Position numbers and translations under genes: made by a program
Part shown: piece by piece, positions 42,764-64,000 of the stretch
Layout of the letters: each line of letters begins with the position of its first letter
Position numbering within the stretch: the first letter of the stretch is position 1
The notes under the pieces: generated by a model
Seen by the model: the letters and a program-made list of their open reading frames with translations, nothing else
The model's database searches: none
Told to the model about the DNA's origin: nothing
From: Flammulina velutipes
Taxonomy: Eukaryota > Basidiomycota > Agaricomycetes > Agaricales > Physalacriaceae
DNA: 64,000 nucleotides
Direction: 5' to 3'
Assembly: GCA_011800155.1 (NCBI GenBank)
Contig: CM022370.1
Coordinates: 3,596,001 to 3,660,000 of the forward strand

Positions 42764-44298
42764 GAAGAATTGATAAGGGCTCCGGAGTCCGATCAGTGTC
42801 CGGGGGCCTCGCGTGAAGTCATTTCAGCGTCACTTTCTTTTTTTGAATATCGGTGATAGCAAAGGGCGTTGCGAGGGGCGGCGACACGGAGAACTGACCT
42901 GCATTTCAATACAGCTCAGGAATAATGTCAAAGTCGAGGAAACTGTCGGCGACTCAGTCTGAATCATAGAACACAGGGAACATCGGCACGTTTTCGTATC
43001 CGATAACGCGCGAACACGATGGGCCCGAGTCGCCTCAACGTTCTGGGACATCCCCGCCACTCGATCACTTCCGTGGAAGCTTGTGGCGCACCCTGTGCAT
43101 CTATCAGACCCACGCAGATTAACTGAATGGGTTGGGGCTTACCCACCTTCTCCGCAATCACTCGTCCGCGTCATGAAGCATCTTCCATGATGGATGATGT
43201 ACGTTTTCAACGAGAATATCAACGTCGGAAAAGGCACGGGCACTGCGCCACTTCGACGCGGTCGATCGCGATGGCCCGCCTCCTATGCCGACAGGGAAAA
43301 AGTATGACAGGTATCCTCGGCAAAACGACGGCGACCCGGTCTCTTTAATCCGCCCTAGAACATTGTATTAAAGCATTCGGTAGGATTCTGGAAGCTGGAC
43401 CGGGATGGACGGAGGAAAGGTGGATGTGGCGCCATGCTTTTGAGTCTAGTATAAAGCATTCTAATCAATATCCTCAACGTCTATTTCGAATACTCACAGC
43501 GTAACAGTCCGTACTACGGATTGCGCCAGAGCCTAGTGCTATCGCCCAGCAGAAAAAAAGCCGTATCACGTGATGCATTTAGAGAACTCGGGAAGTAGGC
43601 CACGGAGATTCAGAAGGAGAACTTGAGAAGTGAGAACCAAGATCCTTGCGAGCGTCGTGGTGATTGATCGCGTCGTCGGACGTTCGTAAATCCGAACGAC
43701 AGAGGACGGAAGGGGGAGCAGAAGCGTACCGGGAACTCGCTCGAGTTTATATGGTAGATGTCATCGACGTATTCGGTTCAGACGCACGTCCGTGCCAGGT
43801 GTCAATCACAATAGTGACTACACTGCAGATATAAATCGTTGATAGCATCCCCTGGCTGTACAAATGCGCAGAACGTATGTCTCAGTCGACGGTTGGGGGC
43901 ATATTGCATCGCGACGAGCAGCAGCTTCGCAACGGCAGGCGCCGCCACATATTCGATTCGGAATGGAAACTTTGAGGCAATCAGACGGTTATTATGCATA
44001 CAGAGTAACACGCCTTACTTTCTGGTGATAATGCGGGACCTCGAAGGCGGAACCTGGAGCAGTAGAGCAGTCTTCGGCCAGAGCGAGAAGAATGAATAGC
44101 GTACAGGCTGTCCGACAGCGAGCAGCCAGAGACGACGGTGGTGGTGGTGGTGGTGGTAGAAAGCCAACGTCGAAATGGCGAACGGAACATCTGATTCCGT
44201 CGCGTCTCATGATGATGTCATGTGATGGGATGTGGCGGATCAATCATCATTGTGCGCCCGAAAGCGGGCTCAAAAGTTCAACGTTCAACGTTCAAGGA
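42764..44298. other. Intergenic region without a recognised gene
   Basis: About 1.5 kb upstream of the GT2 gene and downstream of the LRR-type gene. It holds short open frames only, none with a familiar motif. It contains the GGT microsatellite at 44137-44158. Confidence 0.45.
44137..44158. repeat. GGT trinucleotide microsatellite
   Basis: Seven GGT units in a row, uninterrupted, in non-coding sequence. Confidence 0.9.
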
Positions 44299-45287
44299 TT
44301 AAACAAAATCGCTTTCTATTTCCCATTCAATAGCTGTACCTAAGGGTACTTCTGTAACTATGCTACCATCGTTCAATTGCTGGTCTAGGATCTTCGCTGA
44401 TAGATGTTTGGAGACTGGGATCATCTCGTGTGTGCGTTCTCCGTCTTCTTCGCGTTTGTCCATATGCGGGATGGATATGGTGAGGTTTGTTAGGTTATGG
44501 AGTGATTGAAGATTTAGACCAGCTATTGGGGAAAGGGGTCAGGTCAAGTTAAAACGTAGAGAAGACAAAAAAACGTACTCTCGTAGAAAAGGCTAACTCG
44601 GAGCGATTGAAGCGTCGACTGGTTATTATCGATCATCCGTTGCATGATATCGCACTGTCTTTGCCCTTCGTATACGCCCTGGAGGTCGACCATCTGGAGC
44701 GCAGTGAGGTTCGTACACACCCTCCCTAGACAACTCCATAAATCCCTATTCCAGCCATTTATTTTGAGCGTAGAGATATTGGGCAGGGAGGGTATACGAG
44801 CGAGGCCAGCGATGCCCGCGTCCACGCGGAGCGTCGCCTCCAAATGTATCTCCAGTGTCCGAAGGGCAGTGAACAAGGGAAGCGTCCCGATGAATTCATT
44901 GAGCGCCTCAGGCTTGCGGCATACGATAACGAGCTCCTGGACTGTCGAGCCGTGTGTCGAAGCGAGGAACTGACAGAAAGAGGAGTCGTAGATGATTTTG
45001 GCTTTGAGGATGTGGACGCCTCGTTTGAGGAGGCCTTTGAGGAATTTGCGTTCGAGGAGGGGGGGTGGGGAGGAGGGGGCGTCGGACCCGTGGAAGCGGA
45101 TGTTTTCGCCTCGGAGGGCGGGTGGGATGTATTTGTGGGATGACGAGGATGATGCAGGGGAAGGGGAGGAGGGGCGGCATGACTTGGACTTGGACTTGGA
45201 GAGGTGTGAATGGGTCCATGAAGTTATGACGCTTAGAGGGGAACGGTGTGTTCTGGGCGAGGTGGAAAATGTGGTAGTGCTCGACAT
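44299..45287 (-). CDS. F-box/LRR-type protein without a visible F-box
   Basis: Two exons (intron about 44523-44581) give about 310 residues. The N-terminus is Ser/Thr/His/Lys-rich and disordered. The body has leucine-rich strands spaced as in the LRR halves of agaricomycete F-box proteins: TVQELVIVCRKPEALNEFIG, FTALRTLEIHLEATLR, LPNISTLKINGWNRDLWSCL, LTALQMVDLQGV, STLQSLRVSLFYE, LQSLHNLTNLTISIPHM. It ends IEWEIESDFV. No F-box motif is seen at the start, so it may be truncated or use another partner. Its 5' end lies 250 bp from the hexamer repeat array. Confidence 0.6.
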
Positions 45288-45539
45288 GGTGGTGGTTTGG
45301 GTTTGGGAGATATTTAGAGAAGGCGTGGGGTTTTATAGACTTTGTGTAAAGGAGCCAACCGGAGAGACATGCCTCCGAGGTCAACAGGGTGACCGAGTCC
45401 AAATTCAAATTCATGGTGATGTTGCGCAAATTAACTTCACGTTTGAAGTGAATCTGGTGCAACTTCACGTCAAATTCAGTCATAGATATCTGTACGCCTA
45501 GTGTTATGTCAGTAGTATAGTAGTCACTATATATCAAAT

Positions 45540-46010
45540 TCAATGTGAATTCAACGCCACCCGAATTCAATTCGAATTCAACGTCGAATTCAACGACGGC
45601 TTCAGCGCCGGCTTCAGCGCCGGCTTCAACGACGAATTCAACGACGAATTCAATGCCTACTTCAATGCCTACTTCAACGTCGAATTCAACGTCGAATTCA
45701 ACGGCAACTTCAACGTCCAACTTCGATTCAAATTCAACGTCCAACTTCAATGCCTACTTCAATGCCTACTTCAACGTCGAATTCAACGTCGAATTCAACG
45801 GCAACTTCAACGTCCAACTTCGATTCAAATTCAACGTCCAACTTCGATTCAAATTCAACGTCCAACTTCAATGCCTACTTCAACGTCGAATTCAACGTCG
45901 AATTCAACGGCAACTTCAACGGGCAACTTCAACCCAACTTCAACTCCAACTTCAACTCCAACTCCAACCCCAACTTCAACGGCAACTTCAACGCCACTGC
46001 AGCGCACAGT
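45540..46010 (+). repeat. Hexamer-based minisatellite, GAATTCAACGTC type (left array)
   Basis: About 470 bp built from 6-bp modules (GAATTC, AACGTC, TTCAAC, GGCTTC) arranged in 12- and longer higher-order units, e.g. GAATTCAACGTCGAATTCAA and repeated blocks CCAACTTCGATTCAAATTCA. A weaker version of the pattern begins around 45400. Because the period is 6, several frames stay open on both strands, but the resulting peptides (NSTSNSTS, EFDVEFDV) are simple repeats. It lies just left of the TET/KDZ island; a like array in reverse orientation lies to the right at 63805-64000. Confidence 0.9.
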
Positions 46011-46246
46011 TTCCCATAGCGAGAGGCTCATAACACCTCTACACTTTCCAATCCCTATGATGGAGCGCGAAATGTGCTCATATTTGGATTGGGAGCTTAC
46101 CATATGAATCGATTGAGCACGTTCTGCTGATACTTCAAGGATCCAGTCCTGAAGACCCTTTTAGAGGGGATTTTAGGCGCAAATATGAATCTAACTGCTT
46201 CAGCTAAATTCAAGACAACTTCAAAGTAATAATACATGACCATTGT

Positions 46247-48922
46247 TTAGCGGCGTGAGGATCGAGTTTCTCTGCCCTTATTGATGTCAGCGGGACTAGG
46301 AGGGATGTCGAATAAACCTGGTTTCGGAATGCCTCTCCTGTACAATTTCCTCAATATAAGAGTTAATGAACACTCAAGAATTGACTTACTGATAACCTTT
46401 AGGCAATGGAAGGACGGAGGAGGAAGCTTCTTGCGGCGATACCTTCTTGGAACGGGGCGCCTTGTTAATCGGAGCTTTAGCCTTGCCTTTTGACGTCTTT
46501 GCAGTAGTTCGGGTCGATGTACCGGGAGATTTCGCTTTCTTGGAAACCGTCGAGCCTTCTGACGGTCCCTCGCTCGACCGTTTCTTGCTGGACTCTGGTT
46601 CATCACCTCTTGACCTGGCCTGCATTTCCTTTCTCACCTCCTTCTCGATCCTCTTCCTCATCTTCTCCTCCATCTTCTCCCTCACCTCCCTCTCTATCCT
46701 CTTCCTCATCTCGTCCCCGTCGTCGTCATTGACGTCGTCGTTATCTTCGTTGCTGCCGTCGTTGACGCCGTCGTTATCTTCGTCGCCGTCGCTCATCTTG
46801 TAGTCGTTATCGTCGTCGTTACCACCGTCGTCTTCATCTTCATCCTCCCTCTTTGCCATCGCCCCTTGCGTGGGGGTCTTCGCCACTCCCAACATTCCCC
46901 CGTCCTTCGGTGCTCCCGTCACCTTCACCTCAGCCACATCGCCCTTCTCCTTCTCACGGCCCTTCGCCTTCCGTTCAGCCCGCTTCTCAAGCCTGGATCG
47001 CTCAGTGAGGTCAGACGAACGCTTCCGCTCAACCTCCTCGCTCTTCCGTGCAATCTCCAGCCTCGTAGCCTCCTCGGCCTCACTCCTCTTCCGTGCAATC
47101 TCCAGCCTCGCAGTCTCCCGGGCCTCCTCCTCCGCTCTCTTCCGTGCAATCTCCAGCCTCGTAGCCTCCTCGGCCTCACTCCTCTTTCGATCAGCCTCCA
47201 GCCTCGCAGTCTCCCGGGCCTCCTCCTCCGCTCTCTTCCGTTCAACCTCCAGTATTTCCGAACGGAGGGTGACATTTGGCTCAACATCTAATAGATCCTG
47301 CTCCTCCAACATAGGCGAATGAGCGCCGGGCTCAACGGTATCCCCGTCAGCCATAAGACAATCCTGCTCATCGCCAGCAGGAGCCTGAATCCCAGTTTCC
47401 GCCGTGACGTCGTCTTTGACCTCAGCGTCCGGAGGGGCCATGTTATGATCGTCTTGCACAAGCTCCGGCTGTGGTAAAAAGCGAAAGGGTGTCCGTGTCC
47501 GATCCATCAGAGTACCAATCAAGAGCATGAGTGAGGGGCCTTCCAGTTCCCTTGGGTCACGGAGGAGATATTTTTGAACATCCGACCACAAAAGTACGTC
47601 GTAGAAGGAAGTTGGGTCCTGCACAATTTTATCGTAGGGAATCTCATCGTCCTCTGAACAGGAGGCGTGTCCTAGGAAACATCAGTCACCACCCTCTACA
47701 TCCTCCAACGTAGGGGACCTACTATAGACTTCCTGGAGAAACTCATGGACGACGGTCGCTTGCAACTTTTTGTCTTTGGCGTTGGTTATGACGGTGGTAG
47801 CATTGAGTTCAGGGAAGACAGGAAGGCCGTCAGGCAGGCGCTGTACGTCGGAATGGAGACATGCTGGAGGCATATATTAGTTAGGTTGAATAAAAATGAA
47901 AGCTACACCACTCACGATGATACTTTTTCCGCCACGCCGTGAGTCTCTCAGCGATATCAGGGTGCAGTATATCTGTCATCGACGGTTCGCCAACCTGAAG
48001 CCTAACACCAAATACGTTAAGAAGAAGGACACATTTAGTTATAAATGCTCACATGCCCCCACTAGGTGCCCCTTCACGAACAGGGGAATATGCAATCAAA
48101 AGAATGCAGCTTGCACCACCGAGAAAGGTCGACAATCCCGTTAGCATGTTGTGCAAGCCCGAGCTGATGAATTCCTTTCGCCTATATTGGACAGGATTAA
48201 TTTAGACCTTCGCCAAGCATTGGGAAACTCACGAAGCCATATCAGCAACAATTTCCTTCGCCTCCTCGTCAAACTCTGCCTGCTCATCGGCGTCAAGTTC
48301 GTTCCACATGCGGGATGCCGCACGGCTATAGGCTCCCGCACTATTGCCATCTACGACGTCGCCTGCCTCTTCTATGGCGCGAGCGCGAACATCCTCGGAG
48401 TTCCTTTGCAAGTAAAGATCCCGCCCACTGAGGGACTCCCATCGCAATAAGGAGCGAATGTTGCTATCCGTTGAACCTGTACCCCGGGATGCTTTACTTC
48501 CTTGTGCGCGGTCTTTGCCCTTACGCTTCGCATTGTCTTTGACGTTTTGAAGCTGGTTTTTAATCCACTGTGGACACAGTCAGACGAATTTTTAAAAGGC
48601 ATAATAAAATTGTACGCACTTGGACAATAACTTTGTAGGAGATGGAGTCATCTGCAGTGCCGTGTTTTACGAGAATGTCTTGGTATACTTTATGGTCCGC
48701 AATTTTAGTCGCCAGCGTCCGTTTGTACGTCCTCACGGAGTCCGTGTCGAGCTCCTGGTATGCAGTTACCCACCAAGGCATGCAATGTTGCAAAAGGCTG
48801 GCATGAATCGGTTGGACCCAGGGCGCCTTGCGCCTCCCGCCTGCCTTGACTTCCGCGTTCTCGTCCTCCTGGTCGACCCCATCCCAAACCCATTCTGAAA
48901 GGTCAGGATAAACAGGTGCCAT
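46247..48922 (-). CDS. Island gene 1: charged nuclear-type protein with coiled-coil repeats
   Basis: Seven exons can be joined from MAPVYPDLSEWVWDG (48922) to ETRSSRR (46247), roughly 740 residues. The N-terminal third has a conserved-looking globular part (WVTAYQELDTDSVRTYKRTL; WIKNQLQNVKDNAKRKGKDR; RSLLRWESLSGRDLYLQRNS; MWNELDADEQAEFDEEAKE), faintly HMG-like in its helix spacing. The middle is a tandem RKRAEEEARETARLE / RKRSEAEEATRLEIA repeat, predicted coiled coil. A poly-Asp/Glu/Asn stretch and a Lys/Ser/Pro-rich tail with KKAKSPGTS and KGKAKAP follow, typical of chromatin proteins. I do not recognise a named family. Its place in the island suggests a DNA- or chromatin-binding accessory factor. 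Confidence 0.7.
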
Positions 48923-49220
48923 AGCGGCGACAACGAAGGAGACAGAAGGGTGCGCCGTCAGACAGAAAGACGTTCCAATTGAAGATGGGAGAAAGAAAGA
49001 GAAATGCCGGGCGCGAGCCGACCACACGTGTGGCGCCTCTCAAAATTCAGGGTCAAGTGTGGGTAAATGGTACGTGCTCTAACCTCGCTTAAACGAGAAG
49101 AACACGATGTTATTGAAACTGAAGGAGATCATTAGGTAGAACATGGACTGAAACACCCTTTGAATATTGAACATTAAACCTGGGGCCCCACGGAGTCGTG
49201 ATTACTCACATTATCGGAGC

Positions 49221-49612
49221 TTACAGGGGCTGCAAGAATGGCTGGACGGCAGCACACCAGTCAGACGGTAGATTTCCGCCAGACGCATCGATAACCACTG
49301 GCGTTTCCTTCGACTGAGGGACAGAGAAGAATGAATACCATCCGATGGTGCGCCACGAACAGCACACAGTATCGAATTCCAAGTGGGCGAAGGAGCGGGC
49401 TGAATACTCTGTCACGCCGATTTGTGCAAGCGATGTGGCGGCATCTCTCATCCTCATTCTATTGCCACGCGTCTCAACGGTAATGACCCTTAATGCCTAA
49501 TAAACTTGTTCAATAAATGAGAAGTGCGACGAACTGAAAAGCTTACTGGCCGGAATACAAACAAGACCACCTCAAAACGTTTCGATGGATGCTTTCTATT
49601 AGTCTTCCCCAT
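49221..49612 (-). CDS. Island gene 2: small protein, function unknown
   Basis: Two exons (49612 to about 49548; intron GTAAGC...TATTAG; then to 49221) give about 113 residues: MGKTNRKHPSKRFEVVLFVF then VITVETRGNRMRMRDAATSLAQ, and ending SKETPVVIDASGGNLPSDWC... followed by PFLQPL. A basic start is followed by an alternating hydrophobic pattern that looks like a small alpha/beta fold. The stop lies in a good splice-donor context (GTAAG), so another exon to the left (49040-49200) is possible. I recognise no family. Confidence 0.5.
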
Positions 49613-49801
49613 AGTCTTCAGGTAGGGAGTAATTGAGGATTGAAAGGCTTCCCGAGGTTGAAATCTTGGAGCTTTGGGCATCGCACTTCGCAGGAAGAAA
49701 GAAAAGATTGAGCGGGAAAGAGCCTCCAGTCACGTTGCAATAATGAACAGTAATATGTAATACAATGTGTAGGCGATGCCAGCCTGCACAGTCCGTCGAC
49801 A

Positions 49802-52575
49802 TCAATCATCCAAGTCGGGTTCCCAAACATCCCCTGGCACCTCTACCTGAGCATGGCTGCTAACACGACGCAGTTCATGGGCAGCATTGAGTTTTTGCTC
49901 CTCCTCGTCAACATCAAGAACGACTAGAGAGCTATCTGTGACACGAATGACACGATCTAAGTCTCGGTCGGGTTCCCCGACTAAGAGGGCCACCAAAAAG
50001 ACGATCCAGGAAGCTTCCTGCAGCTTGGGATCGAGCGAATGATACTGAATTCCTCGGCAGAATTGGCCTTGGTGCCTGCCGTTCCAGATGTACCACCGCT
50101 GATTCTTTTTGGGCTTGCGCCCAGGATTCGATGGTAGGAGCAGTTCTGGAGCCCAGCGTTTCCCCAGTTGTCGATTACTTTGCCATTGGCGGATGGCGAT
50201 GTCGAGCCCGTTCCTCTCTTGGACCACTAAGATGACGCTCGGTCTTTGTGCTGTGGACTGCCGTGAGACCACGGAGATGCGATGTCCTTCAAGCTGCGAG
50301 GCCTGCAGCCAATGATGGTGCGCAACGACCGGAGAGGGTACATGGTGAGGTGTGGGCGGCGGGGTGGGAGCCCTCTGAGAATGTAACGACGCAGGCTGCG
50401 CCATTCGGACGATGCTCAAGAAGGCCTTCTCTTGACGTTGAGACTCTCTACTTCCACTCCATCCGTTTCTCGCCAGTGACGACTTTGGGGGATGCGCGAT
50501 ACGCAGAGGCCAGGAAGTACTGTAAAGAGTAAACTAAATGCCTGGTTCTTGAAGTAATAGAAAACTTACTTGGAGTCGAGGACGTGGTCATAATCCGTTC
50601 TTAGAACCTTCTCACTCCCGTTGAGCAAGAGCGAGACGTCTAAGAAGATCCCAGAGGGTGTCGCATCGGAGACGTCTCCGGATACGACGTAGCCCAGCCG
50701 ACCTTTGTAGTCGTCCGACAGGTCCGCCAATTTATGTGAATGAGGGTGTAGAAGAGGGTCCAGCTTGGCAGTTACTTGCTTGCTTTGAGGTGAGCGCCCC
50801 GTACCGATGATGGATACCATAACACCAATCCAAGGGCATCGTCCAACGGGGTGGGGGTCTTCCCGGGCGACAGTCGAGGGAACCTTATTCCGTTTATTAG
50901 CCATGCGCTGTTCGATTAGGAGCGAGTGTTGCTCCAAGTGAGTGGTGAAAGCTATGGATCTACAGCCATTTCGTGGGGTGGTCAAGAGCTAGAACGGTGT
51001 TAGATCCGTTGGGGGCGTTGGTGCACTAGGGCTTACCTCCATCGTACACTTTCCTTGCAGCTCCTGAACGATCATCACATCTACCATAGGACCCTTGTTC
51101 GCAGTTTGGAACACCACCCAACCTTGAAGTATCTGGCGACCTGGCACCGGCACCTCAACCACGTCGTAGTCGTTGAAATGTTTCAGCGCATTCACTTTCA
51201 AGATCCACCCTATCGGGTGCTCTCCTGGTTGCTCAGCCTCCGCTGGGTCTTGCAGTAGGAGGATACGATCGTCCTCTAACTTCCCTACCACCCCACGGAG
51301 CCCCGTTATGCGATCGAAGACCATTTCCCCGTACGCCATCGTCCATTCTAGCGGAATAGGTAGCTGTGACCTGGGGGCTTTACCGTTACCCGATCGTTGC
51401 CACTCTTCGCGAAGGTGTTTGGAGACGTAGGTGGCAGTTTGAATGTTGGCGGGGCGACACCTAAGCATGAGAAGGTCTCCGTCGAACTGACATCCTGGTG
51501 GGTCTCCGTCTACCGTTGGATCGAAAAGCTTTGGGGGCGGGCGTGAGTGCAGCGGGCAGCATTCGCCAACCCTTGCCCGTTTCGCACCGCGCGAGCGACC
51601 CATGGAACATTCTGTAGCTTCTTTTCTCGCCTCGTCGGTGCCAGCGTCGACGGGGCTCAGCCTTGGGACCACAAGAAGTTGCAACCACTCTCCGGCATCC
51701 AGAGTGACCCATCCAACATCACCACGATAGAGACCTCGGCGAATAGTCACCCAACGGTCGGCCCACTTTGGGCGAGGGTTCATGAGTTTCAAGGTCGCTG
51801 CTCGTTCTGCGAGTTCATGGACGACCCTCATGGAGGACGGGACCACCGTCGGACAGGTCTTCGTGATACGCTCATGGATAGGACCGTGCTTGTGAGACTC
51901 GAGCAATAGGTAAAGCCGAGGTCGATCGGCGTGAAAGGACCACGCCTCCACCAATTCGTCGCCCACTTTTGCGCCGCTTTTGAGATTGTGGACTACGTCC
52001 TCATGAGTACTATCCTGAAGCATTCATCAGTAACGATACCAGCGTCTTACTAACAGAAATATTTGCCTGGTTGAATTCATAGCGTAAGATAGCCTTGTAG
52101 GTGTTCTGTGCGACGGCGAGGATGTATTCCTCGTCGCGTAACTTGCTCTTGTCGATTTTCTTCTTGTAGGCGAGAGTATCAGAGGTAGACGAAGGTGATG
52201 CCCCACGCTCGCCGGAAGGAACAGCACTTCCTTTTTCTATGCGTTGGAATAGATCTCCATACAGCTCCTTAACTCGATCGCGGTGGGTTGGCTGAAAGGT
52301 GGCGTTCGACGTTGAGCATTGGAATAGTCGCTCCTCCGCTGCCATAGAATCATCATCGTCAATGAGTTCTACTCTGGAATGTCAAAAATGGAGATTAAAG
52401 GACGAAGATGTTGATCACCTCGTAATGCAAACGTGGCGTCATCATCTTCGTCCTCGTACTCTTCTTCAGTCGGGTCGTCAATGGCTACATCGTCGATAAA
52501 CTGGTTCCTTGGATGGACGGAGAGGGTCGTTGATTTTCTCTTAGTCGAAGAGTTTATTCCTAATAATTCTGACAT
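49802..52575 (-). CDS. Island gene 3: Spt5-like NGN/KOW protein
   Basis: Five or six exons give about 810 residues. Order: an acidic N-terminus (DDPTEEEYEDEDDD), a mid helical part (YGDLFQRIEKG), an NGN-like domain (PRLYLLLESHKHGPIHERIT...VVHELAERAATLKLMNPRPK), then a KOW motif WADRWVTIRRGLYRGDVGWV, and further KOW/SH3-like strands (GEMVFDRITGLRGVVGKLEDD; KGRLGYVVSGDVSDATPSGI). It ends GDVWEPDLDD. Spt5 is the universal RNA polymerase elongation factor that clamps the polymerase and recruits processing factors. This protein is shorter and diverged and lacks the typical C-terminal heptad repeats, so it is a paralogue and not the housekeeping gene. It is divergent from the TET/JBP gene, suggesting shared regulation. 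Confidence 0.7.
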
Positions 52576-53444
52576 CGCGGGACCTAAGGTAGTCGTTAGT
52601 TTGGGTTAAGCTTTCCTGGAACGTTTACAATATGATAGGATTGAAGGGTACTCTATTTATGTTTTTACAGCGACTTTTTCGAAAGACTTACAGAGAAAGT
52701 GTTACACTGACTTGTGGTTATGAGCAAAGTTGGAAAAGCTTACGTAATGTTGGAGGCTGCGTTGATACAAGACATCAGACTTCGACATTCCGCTTATAGA
52801 CATCAACTCTCTTTAGAACCACCATGTCAAGTACCGAGCGAACCACTATTATCCACGCACTCGCCACTTATATTCATCTATAATATTCACTGTATTTAGG
52901 TATGATCATATTGTATTGCTGCTTCAACCCTATGTAACTTTAATAGCATTCAACACTCGTTGAGGACACCTTAGATTAGCATGACCGTTGACCGTACGGA
53001 CGAATGGAATATTAGCACCAGGGATCACTCGCCATCGGGTCTATAAACCAAATGTAGGATGCATTGATGTAATGAACGCACAATTGGCCAAGTCGGTATA
53101 CCGACTAGCCATCCGCTAGGATGGTGTTGGCCAATTTGCGTGGTATATTGATCGATCAACCAGTCGCTTAAAACGCGTAGTCGACTATAGTGTGCAGTTA
53201 CATAATTGGCAGAGTCAATGCCATACTGGTGTTAAATAGTGCGCCACATAGACAATCTTCTATATGCGACGCTCAACAGACGCGACCACGTCTAACACCA
53301 ACTCAGCTTGAATACGCTCACGTGCTTTGTAGGACGGTGTTCGATCCTGCCATCAATTAATAATGACGCGCTAATTTAAGCGAAATACGCGGTCGACGCT
53401 GCCGTCCTTCCTCCCAGCACCACCCTCAGAAACGTTGCAAGGCC
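52576..53444. promoter_or_regulatory. Divergent promoter region of the island, palindrome-rich
   Basis: 869 bp between the start codons of the Spt5-like and TET/JBP genes, so it must hold both promoters. Palindromes cluster at 53076-53200: AGTCGGTATACCGACT (53091-53106), TTGATCGATCAA (53148-53159), ACGCGT (53173-53178) and TAGTCGACTA (53178-53187). A TGGTGTTA / TAACACCA pair lies at 53227 and 53293. No open frame of note. Confidence 0.6.
53076..53141. repeat. 66-nt three-way-junction (T-shaped) palindrome
   Basis: Outer arms ACGCA-c-AATTGGCCA (53076-53090) and TGGCCAATTTGCGT (53128-53141) pair over 14 bp with one bulged C. Inside are two complete hairpins: AGTCGGTATACCGACT (53091-53106, perfect 16-bp palindrome) and CCATCC-GCTA-GGATGG (53109-53124, 6-bp stem, 4-nt loop). 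Only 2-3 bases separate the stems. The pairings are exact as read from the sequence. A protein-binding or replication/transposition role is inference. Confidence 0.85.
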
Positions 53445-55421
53445 ATGGCATCCGTCGAAGGTACGCCTGTCTTTTTATTTGCCTCTAGATAGTTTCTATC
53501 GCGTCTTGACGCCCGAAGTCTGACCGCCTTTGGACGGACGAGGGTGTCAGGTCGCGCGCGTCAGTATGAGGCCTTACGGCTCCAGAACCCGTGAATTGCT
53601 ATACCACATTGGGTTATTCGATACGTCCATCTGTCTAACGAAGCAACTACACAGATCTTAGCACCGGGATAGGTGGGCGTGTTGACCCCACCGTACAGGT
53701 AACCAGGGTTGCCCATACGACGATTGAGCAGCTCATGGATGCCAGAGCCGCGGAGGCCGTCGAAGAGGGAAGGCGCAAAGGCGTGGACTTGTACACGCAA
53801 CTCTCGCCTCTGACGCCACTCTCATCCTGCCCGTCGTCCCCTTTGACCCCTGCTGGTAAGAGGGTGGTTGCAGACGATCCCATGTCCCTCGGTTCCCCTC
53901 TTACCTCACTCTCGTCCCTCTCATCGCGCCCTCCGTCTCCTTCCCATCCAGCGGACAACCTCGCCGGAAGCTCTCCGTCACCACTCTCACCTAGCCCACC
54001 CTCCCTCCCTCGCCCTTCGAATGGCTCGAATTCTCCCGAGGACCCTCCCCTTCCGCCCCCCAAACGCCTGGTAGCCCCGCCATCATACGTGGCCAACATG
54101 GCGCTGACCGCAGCCGAACGCCAAAGGGAGAAAAATCGATATCGGAGAAAGGTCGCGTCGTTCAAAAGGCAGCAGGAGGCTGAGCGAACGGCTAAGAAGG
54201 CTCGAAAGCAGAAGGTTCGGCGCAGGAACCAACGAGAAGTCAGCAGGTCGGCGCTGCCGGAGGTCTCCCAAGCCCGCCCGCCCAAGAAGAGAGCGCGCCG
54301 ACACCTTCTTGCCGCCCTCACAATTCAAGTTGACTTTACCCCAACCTTTGCCCCGTTTCAGGGCCCTCGGACCAACTGGGATAATCGCTCATGGTTCCTT
54401 TCAGACTCCCCGGAGCTGGAGGAGTTGGGGTTCCGCCATGTGTCCTGGTTAGGAGGGTTCGTCGCCAGCCCCGCTCCTAATCACAAAACATTGTGCTAAC
54501 CACCTCTCCAGGGAACCCCACGTCATCCTGGAGGCTAACGGTCGGGTAATCTGCGTATGCTGCGGGCATCCGGGAGGGGATGGTTGGGGAGAGGTGGTCC
54601 AGCGAGCGAACGACGCCATCCGCCGTTGCCAACAACGCTGCAGCATCGATAAGACCCACCGCTTTCATCGCAGGGGCGACTACCCCACCTTGGGCTACGG
54701 CATCTCCTTTGGCGGCGGTCGGGTGGTCCCAGGATGGATTGACAACAGCGACGTGAATCAAGCCGCTCTGGCGGAGTTGATGAAGGATGAGGCAATTGTC
54801 CGGCTGATGGGATTCGCAGACGGTACGTTTCGTGCTACGCCTATCGCTGGTCTGACTGCTGAAGCTCCCGCGGTAGCCAGTCTCGCCAATTATTTTCCTG
54901 AAATCCACGCGGACTATGAGTCAGTTCTAGAAGCAGTGGTGGGAGACAACCCGACGCTCTCCCGTCCCTTTCCCAACTGCGCCTTCGCAGCCGCCCATGC
55001 CAACTTTCCCCCTGCAGCTTTCACACGGCTCCATACCGACCACCTCAACCATATCGCCGGCCTCTGCGCGCTTTGGGGCTTGGGGAACTATGACCCGGAC
55101 AAGGGTGGGCACCTCATCCTCTGGGATCTCAAACTCATCATACGATTCCCTCCGGGAAACTTAATTCTGATACCCTCGGCGCTCATCAAGCATGGCAACT
55201 TTGGCGTATACCAAGGGCAAACCCGGTGTGCGTTTGTCATGTTCTCTGCCGCTGGATTATTTCGATGGTTTATGAATGACATGAGGTCGGATCTGGAAGT
55301 CAAGGAGGGATGTTCGGCGGAGCATGTGAAGGAGTGGCGCCAGTATAGAGAAAGCCTGCGCTGTCTCAATCCCCAGCGGTTTCCCTTGTGGGAGGACCTC
55401 GTTTCAGCTCGTAGTGTATAG
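53445..55421 (+). CDS. Island gene 4: TET/JBP-family 2-oxoglutarate/Fe(II) dioxygenase
   Basis: Three exons (53445-53460, 53655-54447, 54512-55421) give 572 residues. TET/JBP enzymes oxidise the methyl group of 5-methylcytosine or thymine in DNA using Fe(II), O2 and 2-oxoglutarate. The long N-terminus is Ser/Pro-rich, then basic (KNRYRRKVASFKRQQEAERT; KKARKQKVRRRNQREVSR), suiting nuclear entry and DNA binding. The catalytic half opens with SWEPHVILEANGRVICVCCG, and has the iron ligands in RLHTDHLN (His444, Asp446) and SALIKHGNF (His497), followed by the 2-oxoglutarate Arg in GQTRCAFVMFSA (Arg508). All are intact, so it may be active. It is the first plus-strand gene of the island. Confidence 0.85.
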
Positions 55422-55729
55422 AATTTTCCCCATCTAAATGCCAAAAATTTGCAAACTTTCAGCTTGAACGGACTTGAATTTCCTTAATGGGAATGTTTGA
55501 GGCGGGGGGCCTGGAACTTCCGCATCAACTTGATTATGTAATCAGTCATCTTTTGCCACTTACCATCGCCTGCTTGACAATAATGAATGGTATAGAAGGT
55601 GTGTTTATCATGAAATGAGTTTAGGCGAGATGTTGAAACGTTAGCTGCCAGTGGTTCTACGCTTCCGCTCATTTCGCCCGCCTCTACCCTGCAGCGTGTT
55701 GGCCTTCAGTACATGAGAACTCCCAATCG

Positions 55730-56267
55730 ATGACCCGCCCGTCACCTACCACCGTTACCATGGTCGACGAGGCCAACATCCGTGCCGACATCGACGACAT
55801 TTTCGATGAACCAAGTGAAGAGTGGGACCTATCCTACAGGCCTTTGGATCCTAGCGTGGAGGGTCCATATGCCCTAGCATGGCCTTCAGTAGTTGCCATA
55901 GTTTTAGGCCCGGTATGTCCATCGCCTCCTTCACTTGCCCAACATCTAATGAATCCCCCGACAGCCTGTTGCTGGATATCACGTCGTCGTTTTGCGGATA
56001 GCTGCTTCGAGAGACCACACTGTCCCTCTTATCCTGGACTCTGCCAATCGCCACACCTTGGTATCTGCATGCGGCAACGCCGGGGAATTTCCTTTAGAGC
56101 GTTATGATGTGGGACAGTCGTCGTGGGTCTCATTGGCTCGTGATGAATGCATTTGGGTGGATCGTCGCCGATATCTAGCACTGAGGAGGGCTGGCATGGA
56201 GGGTCACCGACGATGGTCGACCGTAATGCCGTTCATTGAACGCCGTAGACCAGATCTTCCCTTCTAA
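55730..56267 (+). CDS. Island gene 5: small protein, function unknown
   Basis: Two exons (intron about 55915-55965, GTATGT...CGACAG) give about 160 residues. The N-terminus is acidic (VDEANIRADIDDIFDEPSEE), then comes a compact region GYHVVVLRIAASRDHTVPLI and ANRHTLVSACGNAGEFPLER. It ends IERRRPDLPF. There is no signal peptide or membrane helix and no known motif. The spacing from the TET/JBP stop (about 300 bp) and the same strand suggest it is part of the island. Confidence 0.55.
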
Positions 56268-56517
56268 ACATCACACGTTCAATTAGGATATGCAAGCTTC
56301 TTTTAGATTACACCGTCCCGTAATAAAAACATATACCTTGACCGTGCTGCCAAGTGGAGGCGCAGGCATGTTTCATAGATTCATCAATAATTAGGCGGGT
56401 GAGTGACGTCCATGCTGCAGCTACTTCTTAAATTAACGGTCGACGTTTTAAAAGGACTGCTCCGTTCTCAATTATCCCCCACCACCTCTCGGACCCACGG
56501 TCTCTTCGTCGCCCTCC

Positions 56518-57556
56518 ATGGCCTTGAACTACGACTACCGCCACCGAAGCCATCTCAACAGGTCGACGAAATCGCAGATTGCTGCCCTCACTCCGGATCC
56601 TCCTCGGAAGTGGTCCATGGACTCCCCAGCAGAACACAAAGCCGCCGTTGACGCCCATCTTCGCCTCCAGGCCCTCGCTAGGGTGTGCGATCTTCGCGAT
56701 CTTTTCTCCCGTTTCCCTTTCCGTTGTTCGTCATGTTTTGGCGGGATGAGACTCAAAGTCCACTTCAACGTGTTTCACTTAAACGCGGATTCGTTTGCGT
56801 GTTCAGCCAAGGTATGTGTCTCGACCGAATTTTGAACCAATTTTTATTCATGGTCGGACAGTGCCTGGAGTGTAGCAAGGGCATTAAGCTACCCTCCCTT
56901 CCCCTCGAAACCATGCAGAACGACGTTCTTCTTCGAACCATCGTACAGACTCGCGCTGAGGTCGCTTCCGTCAAACTCCGCTACCGAGTTCACAAGAACG
57001 CCCTTCAGGATATCCATCGCAATTGGAAGACCTTCATTGCGCCTCCTCTTTACGGAACCGTGCTCGGACCACGCACGGTGAGACGCAACCCGCCTTTGAG
57101 GCGCTACCCGTCGGTAGAACTTGTCGACGCTGCTTCGACCGCCCCGGCCCCAACCACTCGACAACGCTCCCCATCGGTGGAGATCATCGCTTCAGTTCTC
57201 ATCAACAGGCATAGATTGAATTTGATCGTCTTTGGTGTAAGTTACCCCCTCTATCCGTTGAGCAGCCAAGGCACTAACACATTCCTCAGGCGACCGTCAG
57301 CCGTTTTACCTTCGACAACCTGAAAGGCCCCAGCACCACCATCCGCCAGCTTTGCCACGACACTCGGCTGAATCAGATGCTGGTAGGAACCTCTCGCCTG
57401 CAAAGCTATGTTGAAGGTAGCTGGAAGCACTTCAGTCTGGACAGGGCGATTCCCCTGGAGGATGCTGGAGCGGGGAAGGGGCTGACTTACCTTATTCGCG
57501 TGGGGTGGGGTGTGGTAGACAAGGACACCCTGGCATTTTGGGCCTCGCTCCTTTAG
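56518..57556 (+). CDS. Island gene 6: CxxC-pair protein, function unknown
   Basis: Three exons (introns about 56815-56864 and 57237-57291) give about 310 residues. Residues about 65-105 carry RFPFRCSSCFGGMRLKVHFNVFHLNADSFACSAKCLECSKG, that is CxxC and CxxxCxxC groups around an aromatic strand, which can form a treble-clef or ribbon zinc site; the first intron falls inside it without breaking the frame. A helical stretch follows (LLRTIVQTRAEVASVKLRYR), then a Pro/Thr-rich linker and a C-terminal globular part (TVSRFTFDNLKGPSTTIRQL; GLTYLIRVGWGVVDKDTLAF). I do not recognise the family; a DNA- or protein-binding zinc module is likely. Confidence 0.6.
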
Positions 57557-57840
57557 GACCAGTCCACCATCTTATGCTTACATGTCGGGGGTTTCAACAC
57601 CCTTGCCTAACGCTCTTTACTTTACCTTACCATTATACATATTGCACCATTTACATTTCTACATAATGCTCTTGAAGATTTTACCAGCGTATCATGAACC
57701 TGCTAACGATTCGTCTACTGTACTATACTGAACGACCCGTTAACGCTTGTTTACTGTACATAGTCTCCATGAATGACCTCTTGATGCCTTTTCACCACGC
57801 CTTCCTCCTACCTTTATCATCACCTGGTCTGAGGGAACCC

Positions 57841-57858
57841 TAATAATAATAATAATAA
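57841..57858. repeat. TAA microsatellite
   Basis: Six TAA units, between island genes 6 and 7. Confidence 0.85.
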
Positions 57859-57955
57859 GATCCTGACCCCTGGGTAAGCTGAACAACAGCATCGGTTAAG
57901 TAATGATGCTAATATTGTTTGTCCCAGCACTCTCCCATTTACCAACAACACGACC

Positions 57956-60900
57956 ATGAGCCAGGAAAGCACCCCCCATTCCAAACCAGACGTCTCCACT
58001 GTAGAACCTCCCAAGGCTCCCAGCAAACTCCCAGGGAATCCCTTCCAATTTGGCAGCCCTTCCAGAGCTACCATCCCACTTCGTCGCCCGACACGAACCC
58101 CTACCAGCTCACCGACGAAAGTGCTCGGGAGCCCAAAGAAATCTGGCAGAGTTGTTACCCCCCTTCGGGATCCAACGCGAACCCCCAGCAAAAAGCATAA
58201 GGGGAAAGGCGCCTTTCAGCAGGGCACTCCGAAGAAAGCATCGGACCCCCTGCCTAACTTCATCCCCGCGATCTCCCCCCCCAAACCCTCCGATGAGGTG
58301 GAAGGAGTCCGTGTTACTGCGACCTCTGTCGAATTCTCCAGGTTCTCCTCTCTATTGAAGGCAGCTGGTGGAGTCCCTGTCGATCCTTACGGCTGGGATC
58401 AACTTATTCATGAACCCGAACCCGCAGCGTTTGAAGCCGCAGAGGTCTCATTGGAAGAAGTGGAAGTTGTGCCATCGCCTGAGGAACCTTCAGAACCCAC
58501 TACCTCTGCCCCATCGGAGGTGAGCACCCCTTTTTATCATTGTTTATCACGCCTCTAACCCATGGCCGTAGGCGCGACGGAGAATGGAAGATTTCCAAAC
58601 CAACCTTCCCGCGTTTCATAGGATCCTCATGGATCTGGAGTACGATGACGGCGTCAACCAACCATGTTCCTGCGACGGCCAGGAGTCGCGTGGCGCTCGA
58701 CTTGTTCGTTGCGAGCAGTGTCCTGACCCGAGCGTCGTCTGCGCGCAGTGCTTTCTGGATAGACATCGCTGGACATGGACTCATTGCGCTGAGGTTTGGA
58801 ACCCATCTTTAGAGATCTTTCAAACGACCTCTATTTCCGACCTATCCGTCCCGTTCTATCCTCAATTAGGCCACCAAGGAGCGCCGTGTCCCTCACCCAC
58901 CGACACTATCGGCTTCATCGTGGTGGACGTACACGGTATCCATAGGATTCGTATCCGGTTTTGCAACTGCAAGGATGGAGAGAATAGCCCCCACTTTCAT
59001 CAACTACTGTGGGCCCGCCTGTTCCCCAACACCACCAGCCGACCTCGGATAGCGTTCAGTCTGGAGTGGCTTCGGCACTTTCAGCTTATTCATACCGAAG
59101 GAGCTTTGAGCACTGCTGCTATGATGGCGGCCTGGCAACGAATCACTAATAACGCCTATCCTTGGGCGGTAGCAGTAAGTCAACTTGATGCTCTCTTCCT
59201 CAGGCTTCGCCTCATGCCATTTTCTTTTCAGGATCTTGTCAAACAAGCAGGACGGGTGTTCCGGATCTTTAAACTGGTCAAGGCTGAAAGGCGAGCAGGA
59301 AAGATTCATGATATCCACGTCGAAATTCCTACGCGCCCGCGCAACCATCTCATGGTACTCTGTCCTGCTTGTCCGGAGATAGGATTCAACGTCGTTCCCG
59401 AAGAGTACAGGAATATACCAGAGCATCTGAAGTGCGTCTAATACTCCACCTATCATGGACCCGCACTGATTGAATGGGTTTCTAGACACATTTGTCGCAT
59501 AGAGAAGACCCTCGATGGCAACTTTAAGCAAACTGCAGGGGCTCACACTTCCAACAACGACGACATCGACCTCATTGGTGGGGACGGACTGTACCCCGTT
59601 GAGGAGATCATGCCTGCCTATCGGGATCGAATTGTTACTCCAAACGACGCACAGAAAGCGAGAGCCAAACAGGTGAGCGCCTGCGTTTACAATCACCATA
59701 TACTTCTTTGACCAGATGCCGCCTAGAAAATCATCTGCAACGACCATAAGTCCCAAAGTACTGCAGACAAAAACGTGCGTTCGAAAAGCATGCAATACAA
59801 CGGGGTCCTACAGTGTCAGTGCTCTCACGTCTTTGTATGCTCCACGGTGGAGATCCCAAAAGGCGAAGAGTAAGCAAGCGTCTCACGCTTAACGAAGTTT
59901 TGGCTAACGATGGCCGGCAGCCATAAAAGTGCGGACATGGCGCTCAACCTGGGCCTCGAGCGTAGCGGTTTGAATAACATCAAGCAAGGAGACCCGGTGC
60001 CGCCTCAGGTATATTGCTACGATAGCATGTGCGGATATTCTACCAACCTCACATTTCGGTTCGAAAATACGCCTGAGCTGTCCCCCCTTAGCTGGCTCAT
60101 AGGATTTGCGCTACTCCTCATAGGTGCAGCGCATGTCTATGCGCATGTGGACGTTTGCAAATATATATTTGGCCCCTTCTACATTCTCTGCGCTGCACAT
60201 TTCCATGGTGAAACCGCGGAACACTTTTGGGCTATCGCCAATAGATTCGCGTCCATCATCTTCCAGATGAATCGCAACCATGGCCACGAGGTTTACTTCC
60301 ACGTCGCTATGGACTGGAACTGGAAGAAGTATATCAACTTTCGTGAGTCTTGGACCAATAGGATCTAACGTTGGAATCTCACCGTCCCCTCAGCAAACCA
60401 GCTACACAAAGAAATTGAATACGCATACGCTCAGCATTTGGCGTTCAAGCGGGAGTTCGACGCATCCTGCATTCGTAACGCTGCCCATATTAAATCTTGG
60501 AGAGCGGAATGGGCGTACCTTGGGACGAAGGCTTATGAATGGACAGAGGACGGTAAGGATGTGATCAGCCCCTACAAGCACCGCACGCTCCAAAGTATGT
60601 GTTCCCCTCAACATCGTCAAATACTCCTGACGATTTCCGTAGTGCCATCAATGGATGAGGCTATAGCGACCTACAACAAGAACCCCATCGTCATGCCGTG
60701 CCTTCCTGGGGACAAAAAAGTGAACCGAAGTGGGGAGGCTCTATCCCTTCTAATTGATGGGCTTAAGCTCGAGAAAGAACAGTACGTTGAGTTAAATATG
60801 ATCGAGCCAATGGCTAACGTTGACGTTAGACGGGACTTACGACGCTTGATTAATAAGGTGTCGAAGTACCCTTCCCTTACGGAGAAGGAATCGATTGCGC

Positions 60901-62308
60901 GAACGCGTCTCAATCTAACCGGTCAACTTGAAGTTTGGATACAGCGAGCCACGAAAACTATCGCTTCATACATTTTTCTTACCAATGGGGCCGACTTCCA
61001 TGGTCCACAGCTTACGGAGGGTAACGCAGAAGATTGGTCTCTAGTTTTGCCCTCTCATCTTTCCCCGACGGAACGCCAGGCAGTCTCCTTCTTGGTCGAC
61101 GCGGAAACCAAGCTGAGAGAGGGAGCTGCGTATGAAGCTGCGCGGATGGCAGTGATTATGGCTGACGCACTTCGGAAGTTCGCTTCAGACAAAGTTTTGC
61201 ATGGGGAGGAGGTTGCAGAAGCCATGGCCCGCCTAACAGCGGGTATAGCTACGAAGTCTACATCTGCGTTACGACAGCTGGAATGGGAAAGAAACAAGGC
61301 GATTGGCGATTGGAACGCGCATAGGTCAGCGCTGGACCGTATGGGAACCTTAGACCAGTCCATGTTGAAGGGCCTCCCGGAGATGGTGAAGAAAGATACC
61401 TTCCGAACCAGATCTGTAGATGGACCACGGCTTCCCGGAGATTCTCATATTCACGAAACGTCTGGTTACCAACATGTACGAGCAATTGCAACCCAGGATA
61501 TGGCTCGCAGAGGCGGCGAACAGGCCAGATTCCCGAATGCAGAGAACGGTCAGCGAAGGATAGAGGCAGACGTCTCTAGGAAGAGGTCCAGGGCCGCTGA
61601 TGACAAAGGCGACCGCCGTGGTACGTCTGCAGTTAATGGTTTTCTATAACTGCTGATTCTCCGTAGCCAAACCTCCGAAATTATTGAAGAGTCGCAATGA
61701 ACCCACGGACTGGTTGCATGAGCTCACCATTCGGGGAAATAAGAACGCCTCGGAAATCGAGGAATGGCTTGTAGACGGTTTGTTTTTGTGGTTCACCTTA
61801 CTGACCCTATCTAACAAGACCCCTAGGTGAACGGGTTCAGTTCTTCAGGTTAGAGGCCGAAGCTCTTCGGTTTTTGGAGAAGGTGGAAAAGACTCAAAGT
61901 GAAATGCTTCGATGCATACGATCTTGGACCGTAACCCAGAAGGCTTGGTCGGAACGTGCCGTTCACTACCGCGCAGATGACCAAAACGGACATGCTACCT
62001 TTGCTCGCCAACAAGCTCACATGCACAAGGAGATGATAGGACGGATGAAGGACAAACTTTATTCGGCTGGTTATGGGCACGTGCTCTTTCTTCCTGAAGG
62101 CCAACCTTTTTGGAAACACATCGAAGCTGTGCGGAAAGGGAAAAGTCCTCTACGAATGACCGTTGAGGAGCTAGTGGAGAAGGAGTATGTTCTTCCTGAA
62201 GGATTAGCAGAGCGAGTCCAAGAGGAACGTCTTGCCAGTGAGAAACGCAAAAAGTCTCGCGCCAATAGGAAGGAAACGCCGAAGCAGTCGTCTGATAAGG
62301 AAGGGTAA
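57956..62308 (+). CDS. Island gene 7: KDZ-family transposase with CxC cysteine cluster
   Basis: About nine exons, more than 1,200 residues. The N-terminus is rich in Thr-Pro-Ser-Lys repeats. A CxC-type zinc cluster follows (CSCDGQE, RCEQC, VCAQC, then CNCKDG), as found before KDZ catalytic domains. The catalytic region shows KTLDGNFKQT (first Asp), the segment IICNDHKSQ...YNGVLQCQCSHVF, SADMALNLGL, YCYDSMCGYSTNL (second Asp) and AHFHGETAEHFWAIANRFA, the counterpart of the DGEGxERxWxxxN box with the catalytic Glu. A long helical C-terminal part runs to EETPKQSSDKEG-like charged residues and TAA at 62308. KDZ enzymes are RNase H-fold cut-and-paste transposases of fungi. Frame and catalytic residues are intact, so it may be functional. 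Confidence 0.85.
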
Positions 62309-62336
62309 ACAAGCAGACATTTGATAACGTATACTA

Positions 62337-62748
62337 CTACAAGATACATTCTACGAATTTCTCGCTATCGAGTTTGAACTTGGGATAAGTTTTACCGTCT
62401 TGCGGTTGTAATGGCTCTGATTCGTCCGAGTCCTCGTCGAAACAATGGACTGCACCAAGGTGCATCAGTTCGCCATCGTACACCTTGATAGTGAGATGGT
62501 CCTTGTGTGCATTCGATGGTCTGTTTCCCAATCAGTTAAGTACGAGCGCGCTAGTGAAAGTCATAACAAGCACTTACTTGTTTTCGCTTTCAGACAAATC
62601 CTCCAAATGAGGAGTGGAACGATGGTAATGGTTTCTATTTAGAGAAGATAAACATACAACTAATAGACATGAATAGATACACTCACAGTAGCACCCAGTA
62701 AGCTCCTTGGTATTGGAAGTACGCCTCGTACTTCCTTTTCATCTGCAT
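62337..62748 (-). CDS. Possible small gene downstream of the transposase
   Basis: Three exons can be joined in one frame: MQMKRKYEAYFQYQGAYWVLL, then NHYHRSTPHLEDLSESEN (after intron about 62640-62690), then PSNAHKDHLTIKVYDGEL to DSEKFVECIL (after intron about 62520-62576). The last stop is at 62337, only 28 bp from the transposase stop, so the genes converge. Upstream the same frame is open to about 62850 (LFYLRRIARVLKDQRPSTSV), so the true start may be farther right in another exon. I recognise no family. It could be the last gene of the island or a host gene. Confidence 0.45.
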
Positions 62749-62917
62749 GAGCACATGGGTTGCTCGATTGACCGATGTAGACGGTCTCTGGTCTTTCAGA
62801 ACACGGGCGATTCGACGCAGATAGAACAAGCGTGGAGCTATCGTCTATGGATGGAATAAAATGGTACGCGAAGAGGGTGGGAATTGCAAACGAATAGGAC
62901 GCGGGGGGTAGATAGGG

Positions 62918-63804: not shown

Positions 63805-64000
63805 GTTGAATTCAACGCCGAATCACGTTGAATTCGTCGTTGAATTCGTCGCTGAAGCCGTCGTTGAAGCCGTCGTTGAAGCCAACGTTGAAGCCGACGC
63901 TGAATTCGACGTTGAAGCCGACGCTGAATTCGACGTTGAAGCCGACGCTGAATTCGTCGTTGAATTCGACGCTGAAGCCGGCGCTGAATTCGACCTTGAA
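63805..64000 (-). repeat. Hexamer-based minisatellite, right array (inverted relative to left array)
   Basis: GTTGAATTCGTCGTTGAATT-type modules with GAAGCCGTCGTTGAAGCC blocks; on the minus strand it reads GAATTCAACGACGAATTCAA, the same family as the array at 45540-46010. It continues past the window edge. Confidence 0.9.

Follow-up and report, generated by a model that had tools for sequence, protein, structure and literature searches.

An 18.95-kb multi-gene KDZ transposon of Flammulina velutipes encoding a predicted TET/JBP dioxygenase and a putative Spt5 paralogue

The DNA analysed in this study, hereafter the window, is a stretch of 64,000 nucleotides from Flammulina velutipes (C3:3,596,001-3,660,000), and copies of its features were sought throughout the 38.1-Mb genome. 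The right-hand part of the window holds a transposable element that, based on the comparison of its copies, runs from position 45,382 to position 64,332, i.e., 332 bp past the window end, and is 18,951 bp long in its complete form. Seven gene models (A-G), which are hand-made, spliced, and without transcript support, span 46,247-62,308 within the element; all seven are open, and they form the two diverging arms that an initial annotation, made from the sequence alone, had described. The minus-strand arm consists of gene A (46,247-48,922; 788 amino acids, aa, in seven exons), gene B (49,221-49,681; 136 aa, two exons), whose relatives elsewhere lie near KDZ genes, and gene C (49,802-52,575; 862 aa, five exons), a putative Spt5 paralogue with an NGN-KOW region. 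The plus-strand arm consists of gene D (53,445-55,421; 575 aa, three exons), a predicted TET/JBP dioxygenase, followed by gene E (55,730-56,267; 161 aa, two exons), gene F (56,518-57,556; 311 aa, three exons, with CxxC pairs), and gene G (57,956-62,308; 1280 aa, 11 exons), a KDZ transposase with a CxC2 domain. The arms are separated by 869 bp (52,576-53,444) that presumably serve as a bidirectional promoter; the two-arm layout stands, but the palindromic centre that had been proposed for it was not confirmed, as this region holds only short inverted repeats, the longest perfect arms being 10-11 nt (no shuffle comparison).

The element is framed by a 7-bp target-site duplication, CCGAGGT, which is found at 45,375-45,381 on the left and, in perfect agreement, at 64,333-64,339 beyond the window on the right; its length is set at 7 bp by the adjoining base, which differs on either side. 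The left terminal inverted repeat (TIR; 45,382-45,909) starts with 5'-CAACAGGG and matches the right end imperfectly, in inverted orientation, from base 9 onwards, while the right end at 64,332, as read from locus L022, is GGCTTTAC-3'. The termini are therefore of the CA..AC type, and the TIRs are imperfect, about 0.5 kb long, and 81% matched over 522 aligned columns. A subterminal array of 12-bp units of the TTCAACG/GAATTC type (34.8 copies according to TRF) occupies 45,577-45,996 on the left; its counterpart on the right, together with the right TIR, fills 63,825-64,000 and continues to the element end at 64,332. The observed/expected ratio of CpG reaches 2.14 in the left array and 2.20 in the right array (63,825-64,120), compared with 0.96 in the element core.

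When the two flanks are joined around one CCGAGGT, the resulting 400-base query matches three adjacent tandem paralogues at C3:3,661,893, 3,663,612, and 3,665,326 (query positions 1-400, 5-400, and 1-400, respectively) with 90, 89, and 84% identity, and the junction letters of two of the three (L081 and L082) read a single CCGAGGT without the element. The element therefore inserted into a single member of a tandem array of host units; it did so as one piece and is mobile. The host array itself covers window positions 44,262-45,381 and C3:3,660,333-3,665,758, with the element in one unit and the three units rightward of it empty.

Copies of the element occur at no fewer than three insertion sites with visible and different flanks, on C3, C9, and C14/C21, and its end sequence is present at six places genome-wide, two of which are the window element's own ends. 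The left end on C9 (C9:118483) is 100% identical to the window element over the first 175 bp, and this copy extends to window position 48,585 with an identity of 94.5% with gaps, or 98% from 45,680 on. The right end is found on C14, C20, and C21 at 93%; C14 and C21 represent one insertion that was duplicated, since the flanks are common to both. A further copy at C19:47,131-108,078 corresponds to window positions 46,151-62,516 at 97-99% DNA identity and matches all seven genes, although its pieces are split by six inserts, 53 bp are missing at one further joint, and the element ends are not seen there. One of the inserts, 36 kb long, splits the TET gene, and this copy also contains nested short elements whose ends are TAGGGTTT-like and whose duplications measure about 8 bp (L012 4300-4945; L009 6130-6600). 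Two other borders were considered and rejected: position 46,151 on the left, because the C9 copy runs through it, and positions 62,508-62,516 on the right, where a break common to C19 and C14/C20/C21 marks a nested insertion. This insertion, at window position 62,508 in the old copies (L016, L018-L020), resembles Kyakuja transposons, with CA..TG ends and a 7-bp duplication, CATTCGA, both read by joining the left junction of C19 to the right junction of C14/C20/C21.

As the initial annotation had suspected, the genes thus belong to one composite mobile element, as evidenced by the shared ends at three sites, the duplication, the empty sites, the C19 locus with seven genes, and a sister element on C12 with six; the island of 46,247-62,308 proposed there, however, is the inside of the transposon, the true borders of which lie further out. 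Within this one genome, the genes are neighbours at more than one locus, and copies with shared borders exist.

The product of gene G matches the Pfam families KDZ (PF18758, 83.2 bits) and CxC2 (PF18803, 84.2 bits), both above the cut-off, in agreement with the earlier assignment. In a rapidly built tree with 27 rows, which took in 23 of 56 database proteins and two of eight own loci after six short-piece loci were dropped, G pairs with its C12 relative and groups with Hymenopellis and Armillaria proteins, a placement that would point to a host in or near Physalacriaceae.

Gene D is predicted to encode a TET/JBP dioxygenase, as had been claimed, on the grounds of catalytic residues and fold and without a Pfam match. 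It is absent from the nine places that the Pfam Tet_JBP family marks genome-wide, none of which is over the cut-off, and a genome relative scores 20.4 bits with Tet_JBP, under the cut-off of 34.9. The iron ligands of the HxD...H motif are present as H447, D449, and H500; they are invariant in 14 aligned sequences, and in an alignment of 17 the histidine and aspartate of HxD remain nearly invariant. A structure model of D, with a predicted template-modelling score (pTM) of 0.68 and a predicted local distance difference score (pLDDT) of 66, has CcTET, NgTET1, and CMD1 as the 21 structures that it resembles most closely, at E-values between 8.6e-11 and 4.0e-6 and with TM scores of up to 0.53; the leading PDB matches are CcTET (E 8.6e-11; TM 0.50). 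At the level of sequence, a PDB search with D yielded nothing credible, its family profile had no PDB-chain match at E <= 1 with CcTET among the chains, and D stands on a long isolated branch in a TET tree. The enzyme is predicted to oxidise methylated DNA.

The Spt5-like NGN/KOW factor of the initial annotation is recovered in gene C by family profiles and not by the single sequence. Alone, C has no match at Pfam cut-offs, its single-sequence searches are empty, and a protein database search with it returned 0 matches among 7,990 scored candidates. A profile of 12 family members, all from the F. velutipes genome, matches Spt5 with E 3.7e-9, and a six-sequence profile matches the Spt5 NGN-KOW region over profile positions 62-365 with E 3.9e-12. 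Searching with six aligned relatives of C gave one match at E <= 0.001 among 7,992 scored candidates, namely a protein from a plant, annotated with precomputed NGN and KOW domains. The host's own Spt5 is probably encoded elsewhere, at C1:2,523,413, where a Pfam NGN search of the genome scores 79.7 bits. Gene C encodes a very divergent relative of Spt5, for which binding to Spt4 or RNA polymerase II is a prediction.

The four remaining proteins, A, B, E, and F, might at a guess serve as partners that bind DNA or take part in assembly. The description of A as a chromatin-type protein was not confirmed: its matches to HMG_box (14.5 bits) and YL1 (17.5 bits) are both under the Pfam cut-off, and its first 406 residues have no PDB match. 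Similarly, a PDB search with F gave nothing credible.

In a diverged relative of the element on C12 (1,969-1,986 kb), the genes KDZ, F, E, C, B, and A have retained both their order and their orientation. Its KDZ gene (open, 1,201 aa, no stop) is 65% identical to G over 1,097 aligned columns, its Spt5-like gene (open, 824 aa, no stop) is 45% identical to C, and B and A are 56% and 34% identical in their best pieces, while E and F are represented by weak matches with E-values of 1.3e-5, 8.9e-4, and 4.4e-4. No TET match was found at the expected position of D, C12:1,976,234-1,981,400, where the best score is 2.9 bits, and a genome-wide search with D gave no C12 match there at E <= 0.001; the set is thus not fixed at seven genes. 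A plus-strand open frame of 199 codons lies where the TET gene would sit (C12:1978118-1978714; L078, L080). In the simplest reading, TET joined, or left, a KDZ-Spt5 core, so that TET is a variable module and the Spt5-like gene is part of a shared set with A, B, E, and F.

The association of these genes with KDZ transposases extends to other loci. Places were counted among the matches listed, with exon pieces and close neighbours merged by hand, which gave 91 KDZ, 32 TET, 91 reverse transcriptase, and 38 Plavaka places from 166, 46, 98, and 68 underlying matches, respectively; seven reverse transcriptase rows, of which four are on C15, C16, and C22, were excluded. The tests leave out the window and C19 copies and include C12, so that six of eight loci of gene B and 12 of 14 Spt5-like loci were used; for gene A the C9 copy was also dropped (three of six used), and C9:139282 is absent from all tests. 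On this basis, each of the six loci of gene B has a listed KDZ gene no more than 12.1 kb away, compared with 12 of the 91 reverse transcriptase places that have one within 15 kb (Fisher p 1.9e-5). Gene A, whose relatives on C12 and at two loci of C5 are weaker, lies within 15 kb of a listed KDZ gene at 3/3 loci (p 0.003), and the Spt5-like genes are near one at 5/12 loci (p 0.026), these last loci not being independent because some are near-identical copies of each other. Besides C12, Spt5-like genes are found 6.5-14.8 kb from KDZ at four loci.

A second layout, in which an Spt5-like gene diverges from KDZ-B-A, is seen from coordinates alone at C5:444-456 kb and C5:2,033-2,047 kb; a TET match at C5:2023478 was rejected as a part of the Spt5 cluster at C5:2033540, because a Plavaka transposase is 2.0 kb away. 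At C9:131-140 kb, about 9 kb past the C9 left-end fragment, a KDZ gene, gene B, and a weak NGN match occur together. By position, the NGN match is 7.8 kb from KDZ and 3.3 kb from gene B; it scores 18.3 bits, below the cut-off, and is the only other Pfam NGN match genome-wide at E <= 1. As for TET, 10 of the 32 places have a listed Plavaka transposase no more than 12 kb away, and nine have a listed KDZ gene within the same distance.

The other copies of the element show a marked loss of CpG. Of 279 substitutions between the window and C19, 138 are CpG sites lost in C19 by transition and 23 are CpG sites lost in the window; likewise, 12 of 15 substitutions in the C9 copy are CpG sites lost in the copy, and for the C14 copy the count is 14 of 36, versus five in the window. 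These losses resemble the pattern of methylated, inactive copies and would lend indirect support to the roles that had been suggested for the TET and Spt5-like proteins at the element. Selective constraint was assessed between the window and C19 by context-matched simulation of neutral change. With all genes pooled, 121 amino-acid changes were counted against a neutral expectation of 147.3, and none of 1,000 simulations was as low; gene by gene, fewer changes than neutral were seen for TET (0.008), KDZ (0.019), A (0.047), and F (0.047), the seven per-gene p values being uncorrected. For gene C, the case for constraint would come from its retention in the C12 element.

Taken together, it is fairly likely that this locus represents an autonomous KDZ transposon of 18.95 kb with several genes, among them an Spt5 paralogue and a TET enzyme that help it to escape from silencing; the mobility is observed, and the function is inferred. 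In the mechanism envisaged, the KDZ transposase would act, as its family suggests, on the TIRs and the CpG-dense subterminal arrays; the host would methylate the element at CpG, and the TET enzyme, by analogy with its family, would oxidise 5-methylcytosine (5mC) on it. The Spt5 paralogue would bind RNA polymerase II, replacing or joining the host Spt5, and would thereby aid the transcription of element genes through silenced chromatin. The CpG-dense subterminal arrays may be the site where methylation and TET act. TET would be an added or lost module, and the shared core would comprise A, B, E, F, and the Spt5-like gene. This suggests that TET and an Spt5 relative of its own are the element's tools against host silencing. 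The broader proposition, that a whole lineage of elements encodes its own elongation factor, with a conserved core of transposase, Spt5 paralogue, and four proteins and with TET in some members, and sets elongation and demethylation against silencing, is favoured by a slighter lean.

Several observations weigh against this interpretation. The evidence comes from one genome only, CpG decay occurs in methylated repeats generally and does not demonstrate TET action, and the C19 copy is broken: C, D, and G are interrupted by inserts, A and D contain stop codons, and G has lost 10 bases. The structure model of the Spt5 exon of C is unreliable (pLDDT 52) and was not used. Moreover, gene C shows no constraint between the window and C19 (25 non-synonymous changes versus 24.4 expected; 0.62), nor do B (0.69) and E (0.45). 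Seven of the 14 Spt5-like loci lie more than 25 kb from any listed KDZ gene, one of them at 25.2 kb, which implies that the family also occurs apart from such elements or that the KDZ list misses some. High levels of 5-hydroxymethylcytosine or 5-formylcytosine in Laccaria bicolor go with strong suppression (PMC8889193); oxidation need not mean escape, because in that species, according to the same source, oxidised methylcytosines go with silencing.

Some of these points would suit an ordinary TET+ KDZ transposon in which TET alone counters silencing and the Spt5-like and small genes are captured passengers without a role. Such an explanation draws on TET+ KDZ elements already published (PMC12730594), on the absence of constraint on gene C between the window and C19, and on the half of the Spt5-like loci that lie away from listed KDZ genes. 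Nevertheless, it is judged unlikely, because the C12 sister keeps C in the same place and orientation, open and recognisable, where TET is not found, and because Spt5-like genes, or in one case a weak NGN match, accompany KDZ at five more loci. Less likely still is that the Spt5-like protein opposes transcription by the host, interfering as a decoy or an inhibitor with host Spt5 or with co-transcriptional silencing; the NGN-KOW region kept in the profile match of an otherwise very divergent protein would fit such an activity, and plants have a silencing Spt5 paralogue, SPT5L/KTF1 (PMC3111484), but no present evidence separates a decoy from a positive role. One might also suppose that unrelated genes came together by chance in a repeat-rich chromosome end, since contig C3 terminates about 65 kb beyond the window and repeats abound in this region; this has a negligible probability given the target-site duplication, the second copy of all seven genes, the shared ends, and the gene order conserved on C12, and a chance gene cluster is rejected by the empty sites.

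With respect to known systems, complete TET+ elements have been reported in many transposon lineages, including Kyakuja, and their escape from methylation has been proposed (Kojima 2025, PMC12730594); CcTET oxidises 5mC (PMC12730594), and the transposons of two agarics are enriched in 5mC and its oxidised derivatives (PMC8889193). The present element is similar to the TET+ Kyakuja of Agaricomycetes (PMC12730594) in its KDZ transposase, internal TET/JBP gene, 7-bp duplication, and 5'-CA start. However, Kyakuja are described as having CA..TG ends and no TIRs (PMC12730594), in contrast to the CA..AC ends and imperfect TIRs of about 0.5 kb found here, and Kyakuja TETs are of the AG type (PMC12730594), whereas the family profile of D lacks a PDB sequence match, CcTET included. 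The element is consequently not filed as Kyakuja, since it agrees with the 7-bp rule but not with the CA..TG, TIR-less ends. It shares a KDZ transposase and TIRs with Zisupton (KDZ), the duplications of which are given as 8 bp (PMC12730594) instead of 7 bp, and it carries a TET gene aboard a fungal DNA transposon as TET+ PlavakaB elements do, with a transposase that is KDZ and not Plavaka.

A transposon-encoded anti-silencing factor is also known from VANDAL with its VANC proteins (PMC5735166, PMC10398659); this likeness is a functional analogy only, without a claim of VANC homology, and the transposase is different. An elongation-factor paralogue that serves a subset of genes has functional analogues in bacterial RfaH (PMC9683785) and plant SPT5L/KTF1 (PMC3111484), unlike which the present paralogue is encoded by a eukaryotic DNA transposon. 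The main text of Kojima 2025 (PMC12730594) has no mention of Spt5, NGN, KOW, elongation, or NusG, and the main text of a 2026 elongation-factor survey (PMC13289920) contains no 'transpos', 'basidiomyc', or 'Spt5 paralog'. The literature searched has no description joining Spt5 with KDZ, or Spt5 with TET, transposon, and Kyakuja; a 2014 paper naming KDZ was outside its scope, and an Spt5 association is possible there. TET+ KDZ elements are thus known already, while an Spt5-like gene inside a KDZ element was not found in the literature searched. If the proposal is true, a transposon with its own Spt5 beside a DNA-demethylation enzyme becomes a direct test bed for the defeat of transcriptional and methylation silencing, and the C12 sister, in which no TET is detectable, provides a natural point of comparison for the contribution of this enzyme.

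Further features were noted in and around the element. A tentative gene H (62,337-62,844, minus strand; about 100 aa in three exons) converges on G with an open model and an unsure start; its first two exons are kept in the C14 copy, and it has no match in the C12 stretch examined. To the left of the element, several diverged direct repeats are spread over window positions 5600-31250, and a reverse transcriptase match is located at 1670-2155 (C3:3597670).

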